From: Planctomycetia bacterium
GTDB lineage: Bacteria; Planctomycetota; Planctomycetia; Pirellulales; JALHLM01
Reading direction: 5' to 3'
Length of the DNA: 35,265 bases
Assembly: GCA_034440135.1 (NCBI GenBank)
Contig: JAWXBP010000477.1
Location: 1 to 35,265 of the forward strand
Shown here: positions 21,117 through 23,860 of the stretch, piece after piece
Layout: the number at the start of each line of letters is the position of its first letter
Position numbering within the stretch: the stretch's first letter is position 1
Notes under the pieces: generated by a model
Database searches by the model: none
What the model was told of the DNA's origin: nothing
What the model saw: the letters and a program-made list of their open reading frames with translations, nothing else
Translations under genes and position numbers: made by a program

Positions 21117-21716
21117 TCAAAACTTCTGTCGTCCTGTCATGGCGTCCGCCAGAATTTCTTTGTTAGCAAATTCTAGCACGCTGCCGGTCGTGATCCCCCG
21201 GGCAAGTCGCGTGACCTGTACGGATTGATCGGCAAGCAAGTTGGAAATGTGCAGTGCCGTGCCATCCCCTTCCAACGTCGGGTTGGTGGCCATGATGATC
21301 TCCCGGACGCCGCCCGCCCGGACGCGTTTCACCAGGGCGTCGATGGTGAGCTGATCCGGGCCGATCCCCTCCAATGGTGCAATGCGGCCGAGCAGCACGT
21401 GATACCTGCCACGATATACGCCGGCCTGTTCCAAGGCCAGCAGATCGCGCGGCTGCTCCACGACGCAAAGCAACGACGGATCGCGACGCGAATCGCGGCA
21501 GATCGCGCACTCGTCGCCTTCGGCCAAATTATAGCAAATCGCGCAATGATGGACGTTGCGCTTCACATCGGCGATCGCCGATGCCAGCCCCAGGGCCTCG
21601 GCTTCCGGTACACGGAGAATGTGGTACGCCAGCCGCTCGGCCGACTTTTTGCCGATCCCTGGCAGTCGAGCGAACTCGTCGATCAGACGCGTGACAGACT
21701 CGGCAAACTCAGCCAC
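21117..21716 (-). CDS. recR: Recombination mediator RecR
   Basis: A 199-residue RecR, which works with RecO (and RecF) to load RecA on gapped DNA. Seen: an N-terminal helix-hairpin-helix ([18 protein letters not shown]), a four-Cys zinc finger (C58, C61, C70, C73), a Toprim domain beginning [10 protein letters not shown] (E87) and continuing through [11 protein letters not shown]-like sequence, and the C-terminal [19 protein letters not shown]. Length is typical. It follows the ebfC gene by 42 bases on the same strand, the conserved dnaX-ybaB-recR order, and is probably co-transcribed. Confidence 0.97.
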
Positions 21717-21758: not shown

Positions 21759-22133
21759 TCATCCCTTGCCTCCAGTTAAGCCGGCCATGGCTTCCTGGAG
21801 ACCAGGCAGATTCATCCCGCCAGCGAGTGATTGCATCGCTTCGGCGTGGATTTGCCGGGCCTTGGCGAGCGCTTCATTCGTCGCGCCGACCAGCAGGTCT
21901 TCCAGCAGTTCCCGGTCTTCCTCCCGCATCAGTTTCGGATCGATCTTACAGCCGAGGACTTCCTGCAATCCGTTGACTTCGACCTCGACCATGCCCCCGC
22001 CCGCGCTGCCGGTGGTGCGACGGGATTTGAGCTCCGTCGAAATGCCTTCCAGCTTGCCGCCCATCTGCTGGGCCTGCTTCATCAGGGACGCCAAATTGCC
22101 CAATTGTCCAAACACGTTTGCCCCCACGTTCAT
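21759..22133 (-). CDS. ebfC: YbaB/EbfC-family nucleoid-associated protein
   Basis: A 124-residue small DNA-binding dimer. The family core is clear: LGNLASLMKQAQQMGGKLEGI, then GGGMVEVEVNGLQEVLGCKIDP and a helical C-terminus (LEDLLVGATNEALAKARQ). Its start overlaps the dnaX stop by ATGA, which fixes the start codon and indicates translational coupling. The C-terminal tail is Gly/Leu-rich. The precise role is debated; nucleoid organisation and recombination-linked functions have been proposed in other bacteria. Confidence 0.95.
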   Translation of the reverse strand: MNVGANVFGQLGNLASLMKQAQQMGGKLEGISTELKSRRTTGSAGGGMVEVEVNGLQEVLGCKIDPKLMREEDRELLEDLLVGATNEALAKARQIHAEAMQSLAGGMNLPGLQEAMAGLTGGKG

Positions 22134-23860
22134 TCCGGCGGCGCGACTTGCGAGTCGTCGACGTTCACCGGTTCGGCTTCGAAAAGTTCCATCGCGCGAC
22201 GCACGAATGGTTGTTCCGACACTTCCTTCAAGCGGTTGCGTTTCACGGCGGGCCGGGCTTCGACCGGCATGTTTGCGCGCTCGGCCGCGGCCCCGTTGCC
22301 GGTGACTTCAATATCGACTTTTACGATCCGACCGGTCGCATCGTAAAGGGCCTTCTCGAGCCGCGCCAGCTTGTCCGGCTTGCGGCAGAGATCGGCGTAG
22401 GAATCATACTGCGCGCTAAAAACCAGGGCCAGCCGATTCGGGGCGACGAGACGCACGCAATCCGCGAAACCAGCGGCCACGCCCAACGAATCGGTAACTC
22501 TTGCCAAGGCGCTGCGCAAAACCGACTCGGCCGTGGCCTCGGTTAGCTCCGCCAACGGCTGCACCGGCACATCCGTAACTTCCGGCAAGGCCGTCACGGC
22601 CGCCGCTACGGCGGACTCAGACGCTTTTTTTTTAAGGTCGGGTTGGGTCGCTGATGCGGCGGCAGGCGGCAAGGACACCTGTACGTCGCCGCCAGCACGC
22701 AGCGCCCCCAGCAAATCCGAGAGGGCGACGAGGTTTTCCATCCGCGAGAGCCGCACCACGGCCAGTTCGGCCAGCGTGCGACCATAGGTGCTGAATCGCA
22801 TCCGCGAAAGCGTCTGATCGACGACTTGGATCAGCGCCAATACGGTGTCGACGCCCAATCGTCGGCCCGTTTGCACGGCCTGCTGTTGCTGGGCGTTCGA
22901 CGTGAAGCGAAACGACTCCGGTCCGCAGCCGGCGGCGGCCACAAGCAAATCGCGCAGGTAGCCGAGCAACTGGTCCATCAACAGTCCAGGGTCGACGCCT
23001 AGAGTAAACGCGCGATCCAGTTCGCCGAGCGCCGTCGCGGCATCGTGAACGAGAATGGCGTCAACCAAGGCCTCGATGCGTTCATCGCCAACGGTGCCCA
23101 GCAATCGCTGGACATCCTCGACGGTGATTCGCTCGCCGCCGAAGGAAAGTAATTGTTCCAGCAGCGATTGACTGTCGCGCATCGAGCCGTTTGCCCGACG
23201 GGCGAGGACCGCCAATGCGTCGGCATCGGCCTGGACACCTTCGGCGGCCGCGATCTGCGCCAGGCGATCTGCAATGGAGCGTGTCTCGATGCCGGCGAAA
23301 TCAAACCGCTGGCAGCGCGACAGGATCGTGATCGGAATCTTGTCTGCTTCGGTCGTACAGAAGATGAACTTCACATGCTCCGGCGGCTCTTCCAGCGTCT
23401 TCAACAACGCGTTGAAGGCCTGCGTGGTGAGCATGTGGACTTCGTCGATGATGTAGATCTTGTAGCGCGCCCGACTCGGCCGCACATTGACGTTCTGCCG
23501 CAGTTCGCGGATCTCGTCGATGCCGCGGTTACTGGCGCCGTCGATCTCCAGCACGTCGACGTCGCTGCCCTGGCTAACGCCCTGGCAGATATCGCACTCG
23601 CCACAGGGAGCAGTTGTCGGCCCCTGCACGCAATTCAGGCACTTGGCCAAGATGCGAGCCGTCGACGTCTTTCCCACGCCGCGGGCGCCGGTGAAGAGAT
23701 AGGCATGCCCCACGCGATTCGTATGAATCGCCCCGCCCAAGGCCTTGGCGACATGGTCCTGCCCGAGCAATTCGGTAAACGTCTGCGGCCGATAACGCCG
23801 CGCGACGACGACGTAATTCGTGTCGTCACCGGATGCAGCGGGAGATTTGGTATCGGACAT
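22130..23860 (-). CDS. dnaX: DNA polymerase III subunits gamma/tau
   Basis: A 576-residue clamp-loader ATPase. Walker A is GARGVGKTS (58-66); a zinc module uses cysteines at 77, 86, 89 and 92; Walker B is IIDEVHM (138-144); the sensor region reads FIFCTTEADKIP, followed by SRCQRFDF. The AAA+ and collar domains end near 375; a low-complexity linker leads to a tau-type C-terminal domain. Codons 410-412 are AAA AAA AAA in an A9 run, where slippage gives a short gamma-like product. The start at 23860 is preferred: residues before it (from 23917) are unlike the family, and a G-rich stretch precedes the ATG. It heads the dnaX-ebfC-recR run, with the SRP RNA upstream. Confidence 0.95.
   Translation of the reverse strand: MSDTKSPAASGDDTNYVVVARRYRPQTFTELLGQDHVAKALGGAIHTNRVGHAYLFTGARGVGKTSTARILAKCLNCVQGPTTAPCGECDICQGVSQGSDVDVLEIDGASNRGIDEIRELRQNVNVRPSRARYKIYIIDEVHMLTTQAFNALLKTLEEPPEHVKFIFCTTEADKIPITILSRCQRFDFAGIETRSIADRLAQIAAAEGVQADADALAVLARRANGSMRDSQSLLEQLLSFGGERITVEDVQRLLGTVGDERIEALVDAILVHDAATALGELDRAFTLGVDPGLLMDQLLGYLRDLLVAAAGCGPESFRFTSNAQQQQAVQTGRRLGVDTVLALIQVVDQTLSRMRFSTYGRTLAELAVVRLSRMENLVALSDLLGALRAGGDVQVSLPPAAASATQPDLKKKASESAVAAAVTALPEVTDVPVQPLAELTEATAESVLRSALARVTDSLGVAAGFADCVRLVAPNRLALVFSAQYDSYADLCRKPDKLARLEKALYDATGRIVKVDIEVTGNGAAAERANMPVEARPAVKRNRLKEVSEQPFVRRAMELFEAEPVNVDDSQVAPPE
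22600..22633 (-). other. Predicted dnaX slippage site (A9) with downstream hairpin
   Basis: On the coding strand nine A residues (complement of 22625-22633) form codons 410-412. One extra A, or a -1 ribosomal slip, gives Ser-Val-stop; one A fewer gives Arg-Leu-Ser-Pro-Pro-stop. A hairpin CCGCC-GUAGC-GGCGG (22614-22600) starts 10 bases later, and a second (GGCCG-UGA-CGGCC, 22601-22589) overlaps its end. A9 in Thermus dnaX is known to cause transcriptional slippage, and E. coli dnaX uses A-rich ribosomal frameshifting; activity here is inferred. Confidence 0.65.

Follow-up and report, generated by a model that had tools for sequence, protein, structure and literature searches.

A conserved poly(A) run in planctomycete dnaX is a probable transcriptional-slippage site for gamma and tau

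Introduction

Opinions have long differed on whether bacteria require gamma, the short form of DnaX. In Escherichia coli, gamma is produced by -1 ribosomal frameshifting in dnaX; it is the shifted product, which ends within a few codons.

A different route to gamma and tau is described for Thermus thermophilus, in which dnaX undergoes transcriptional slippage (Larsen et al. 2000, as recounted in PMC5009743, PMC1088944 and PMC4320859). The stops in Thermus dnaX are located 2 and 16 codons past the run (PMC4320859), and the presence of both lysine tRNAs may explain why this organism uses slippage of RNA polymerase over ribosomal shifting (PMC5009743). In yet other dnaX genes, two open reading frames (ORFs) are accompanied by a run of A9-A10, and tau arises by recoding (Antonov et al. 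2013, PMC3711429). Slippage that truncates its product is hard to test by comparative genomics (PMC1088944).

In this study, we analyzed a 35,265-nt stretch of DNA from a planctomycete (hereafter the window), together with dnaX genes of related genomes. The dnaX gene of the window carries an uninterrupted run of nine A residues which, judged by comparison of sequences, is probably a selected slippage site of the Thermus type that would make both gamma and tau. This kind of system is already known, but its class-wide conservation in planctomycetes appears unreported: no description of dnaX slippage in planctomycetes was found in the literature searched.

Results

The dnaX gene of the window (22130..23860, minus strand) has 576 codons plus a stop, from an ATG at 23860 to a TGA at 22130-22132, and its zero frame encodes a tau-type protein. 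The N-terminal part of the product matches TIGR02397 (dnaX_nterm) with an E value of 3e-134, far over the cut-off, and residues 11-306 match E. coli gamma/tau structures (E about 1e-82). Pfam matches cover the delta2/AAA clamp-loader ATPase, the lid and domain III, the last of which ends at about residue 382 of 576. The A9 run follows at codon 410, and the zero frame then continues for 164 residues. This tau-only part (22133..22624, minus strand) consists of a variable linker and a C-terminal domain that is conserved within the order. It matches PF12362 (DnaX gamma/tau C terminal) weakly, below the cut-off (E 0.012), and a sequence search of the PDB with the domain returned nothing meaningful and no solved relative.

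The gene is the first in a dnaX-ybaB-recR cluster, with ybaB/ebfC at 21759..22133 (minus strand; PF02575, E 3.5e-28) and recR at 21117..21716 (minus strand; Toprim, RecR HhH and RecR zinc finger). The ATG of ybaB overlaps the TGA of dnaX as ATGA (22130-22133), which among 56 checked genes was seen only in the window and in L002. Given this overlap, translation of slipped dnaX messages would stop about 480 nt short of ybaB, and expression of ybaB and recR might drop. We also asked whether translational coupling of dnaX and ybaB could account for the site, and rejected this, because among the genes checked only these two have the overlap.

The A9 run itself (22625..22633, minus strand; T9 on the plus strand) spells codons 410-412, AAA AAA AAA. 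An initial sequence-only reading had located it at these codons and had predicted that a gained A would end the product after Ser-Val and a lost A five residues on; the window sequence and the ORF bear out all three points. When one A is gained, or the frame shifts by -1, a TGA at 22617..22619 (minus strand) is met after two codons, and the predicted gamma has 414 residues and ends in KKKSV. When one A is lost or two are gained, a TAG at 22606..22608 (minus strand) is met after about 5-6 codons, and the predicted gamma has 417-418 residues and ends in KRLSPP, preceded by the lysines of the run (KKKRLSPP).

Dinucleotide shuffles of the window alone do not make the run exceptional, as at least two A8 matches, the number observed, occurred in 22 of 100. 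It does stand out in the whole 7.29 Mb genome, where only 11 A9 matches are present on both strands. The relatives sampled were the 52 genomes of the order in which a dnaX match was obtained; they hold 54 dnaX genes. These were checked for interruption of the run by AAG codons. An uninterrupted A9 or A10 is present in the linker after domain III in 45 of the 54 genes (43 of 52 genomes, 18 of 20 families), which leaves the slippage reading unrefuted. The run always lies within codons 399-453, and its length is A9 in 29 genes and A10 in 16, with no others. At the genome-wide density of A9 in the order (1.25 per Mb per strand), chance would place A9 in dnaX in 0.13 genomes, versus the 43 observed; two genomes (G007 and G039) have only two A9 matches each in total, one being in dnaX. 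Since the 45 genes share ancestry, they do not amount to 45 independent events.

The run is found in codon phases 0, 1 and 2 in 6, 9 and 30 of the 45 genes, respectively, and the encoded peptides vary with phase (KKK, EKKT, QKKN and AKKK) within a poorly conserved linker. Its presence in all three phases indicates that DNA or RNA is conserved, not protein, and the distribution over phases that the conserved element is not a constant peptide or a constant heptamer. Lysine in dnaX codons 1-390 across the order is encoded by 347 AAG versus 146 AAA codons (70% AAG); AAG is thus the preferred codon, and an uninterrupted A9 goes against this preference. Copies of dnaX within the genus share an identical A9 and a conserved CTGAG, and the linker around them differs.

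One assembly of the same genus (G001) holds two dnaX genes, L002 and L032, each with an A9, whose products share 93% and 85% identity with the window protein; these may represent either a duplication or a mixed bin. In L061 and L062, from the same class, tandem runs (A9-TTG-A9) occupy dnaX codons 427-434 and would constitute a doubled slippage site.

For analysis of out-of-frame stops, zero-frame codons 3' of the run were shuffled in order, 400 times per gene, and stops were scored within 30 nt. A stop is present at this distance in the +A frame in 39 of 45 genes (null 11.3, maximum 20), in the -A frame in 38 of 45 (null 9.8, maximum 19), and in both shifted frames in 34 of 45 (null 2.2, maximum 8 in 400 shuffles). 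The nearer stop is usually in the +A frame (median 9 nt versus 17 nt in the -A frame). Fourteen further planctomycete dnaX genes, six from a genome sample of the class and eight from named records, gave both-frame stops in 10 cases (null 1.9). Conservation of the run and enrichment of stops in two frames among relatives together support the earlier proposal that the A9 is a candidate gamma/tau slippage site.

That proposal had also included two small hairpins 3' of the run. Both are present in the predicted fold, among them CCGCCGTAGCGGCGG (22600..22614, minus strand), but in neither the window (z -0.56; 53 of 200 dinucleotide shuffles were as good) nor 44 relatives (mean z -0.21) does the region fold better than expected by chance. 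The hairpins are weak and probably incidental, and we rejected them as stimulators, although a small context-specific effect is possible. A Shine-Dalgarno-like motif upstream of the run is absent in the window and occurs in 4 of 44 genes, compared with 3.5 expected. By tRNA annotation, the genome of the window encodes both tRNA-Lys(UUU) and tRNA-Lys(CUU). The CUU anticodon-arm pattern is present in 54 of 57 genomes of the order, and for this reason a tie between the distribution of tRNA-Lys(CUU) and loss of the run in family f17 was dropped.

A phylum-wide tree of 161 DnaX N-terminal regions placed the window in a 61-gene clade of the class (SH-aLRT 99), in which the run is kept in 52 genes. 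It traces the run to the base of this clade and needs 15 gains or losses across the phylum. In the best reading of these data, a putative dnaX slippage site has been retained through the class, with losses in some lineages. The nine dnaX genes of the order that lack A9 or A10 are L042, L046, L047 and L048 (family f17) and L021, L029, L036, L040 and L043; the longest A-run in their linkers is 7, and no substitute signal was seen there by eye. As nine genomes, including all four of f17, have neither the run nor an obvious substitute, a dnaX slippage site is not indispensable. These nine genes are natural controls for the need of gamma. Named records carrying the run are from Aporhodopirellula, Gemmata and Schlesneria, and isolated A9 runs occur at the same place of dnaX in metagenome-assembled genomes named Verrucomicrobia, Ignavibacteria and Bacteroidetes.

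Two other arrangements were found in the phylum. In L145 and L155, the layout is reversed at about dnaX codons 392-408: the zero frame meets a stop 6-7 codons from where an A10 begins, and a tau-like C terminus is available only in the gained-A/-1 frame, so that tau would need slippage or frameshifting at the A10. Family f22 (L129, L140, L146 and L148), which shares a well-supported subclade with L155, has no A-run. Near codon 391 it has an invariant G_GGA_AAA GCC followed by a zero-frame TGA, with GGAG upstream of G_GGA_AAA in three of the four genes and a GC-rich stem 6-7 nt downstream that shows three compensatory pairs and also broken pairs (total covariation term +0.38). The -1 frame encodes about 80 residues and ends in RARELFAPE, similar to other DnaX C termini. 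In these four sequences, G_GGA_AAA is a candidate -1 ribosomal frameshift signal that would make the longer DnaX and may replace the run.

Discussion

The arrangement in the window suggests the following mechanism. RNA polymerase would slip on the template T9 and generate dnaX mRNAs with 9 +/- n A residues. Messages with 9 or 9+3n residues would direct synthesis of the full 576-residue tau, and other counts would lead into either of two frames, with a stop in 2-6 codons, to give a gamma-like protein of about 414-418 residues. This protein would retain domains I-III (ATPase, lid and oligomerisation; to about residue 382) but not the tau-specific C-terminal domain. Observed in the genes themselves are the run, its nucleotide-level conservation in three phases, its pairing with stops in the other two frames and the lack of ribosomal-frameshift stimulators; slippage, its efficiency and the incorporation of gamma into clamp loaders are inferred.

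The same run could be read by the ribosome. Every run of at least nine A residues holds an in-phase A_AAA_AAA on which ribosomes can slip by -1, the -1 frame coincides with the +A frame that has the nearer stops, and frameshifting in E. coli reached 40% with an A9 cassette and 10% with an A7 cassette, with transcription versus translation not fixed as the source (PMC3711429). Frameshifting of the E. coli type on A_AAA_AAA or A_AAA_AAG, alone or beside slippage, might thus make gamma. A seven-nucleotide signal, however, has no need of 9-10 A residues, and it leaves the free codon phase of the run unexplained, as well as the equal enrichment of stops in the +1 frame, which is out of reach of -1 shifting. 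An in-phase A_AAA_AAG occurs in only 6 of 45 genes, and the window has A_AAA_AAA but no A_AAA_AAG. With neither a Shine-Dalgarno nor a hairpin signal, and with tRNA-Lys(CUU) present, we consider this explanation unlikely, though the ribosome may make some contribution on A_AAA_AAA.

Two further explanations are much less probable. The run could be a mere lysine patch in a disordered linker, maintained by protein constraint or there by chance: it encodes KKK in the window, Lys-Lys is common to all phases, and shuffles of the window do not make it improbable. This is very hard to reconcile with the scarcity of A9 in the genome, the preference for AAG, the retention of the run in three phases with differing peptides and the excess of stops in both shifted frames, and we regard it as largely refuted. 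Alternatively, replication slippage at the run could switch between tau and gamma genotypes by phase variation of the DNA, as replication slippage is especially frequent at homopolymers and the run in L145 and L155 is out of frame for tau. Yet each of the 45 runs of the order has a length that leaves tau in frame. Tau ought also to be indispensable for coupled replication, and phase variation mostly affects surface or modification genes (PMC3711429). Of the explanations considered, this appears the most remote. Transcriptional slippage remains the probable function of the run.

A broader scenario is that an ancestral frame switch in planctomycete dnaX has been repeatedly rewired, as gamma-making slippage in most of the class, as reversed, tau-making slippage in L145 and L155, and as a -1 ribosomal shift on G_GGA_AAA with a stem-loop in f22, selection acting on two lengths of DnaX while the mechanism changes. 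We offer this tentatively, and rate its chances at somewhat under even. The run is held at 9-10 A residues through a class in whose genomes A9 is otherwise rare, and both alternative frames are guarded by stops; this is evolutionary evidence for selection of the short form. Conservation of a run irrespective of phase, combined with the two-frame stop test, also provides a comparative test of truncating slippage. Aporhodopirellula, Gemmata and Schlesneria are candidate genera for direct RNA tests. If slippage takes place, its effect should follow run length and not reading phase (A9 versus AAGAAAAAG).

Among known dnaX systems, that of E. coli is similar in the length of gamma (about 430 residues, versus 414 predicted here), but the window differs from it in having no in-phase A_AAA_AAG, upstream Shine-Dalgarno sequence or significant stem-loop, and in the conservation of +1-frame stops among its relatives. 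The two-ORF dnaX genes of Antonov et al. share with the window a run of 9-10 A residues in the linker that would act as a frame switch, and L145 and L155, from the same phylum, have their layout; in the window, by contrast, the zero frame already encodes tau and the slippage product would be the shorter one. The closest counterpart is found in Thermus. In both organisms a single ORF for tau carries an A9 past the gamma domains, gamma and tau being the predicted outcome here, both other frames stop, with the nearer stop 2 codons away in the +A frame, and two lysine tRNAs are present. The run is located at about 71% of the ORF (410/576) in the window versus seven-eighths in Thermus, and the second stop is 6 rather than 16 codons away. 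Conservation of the putative system of the window could be followed here over a whole class.
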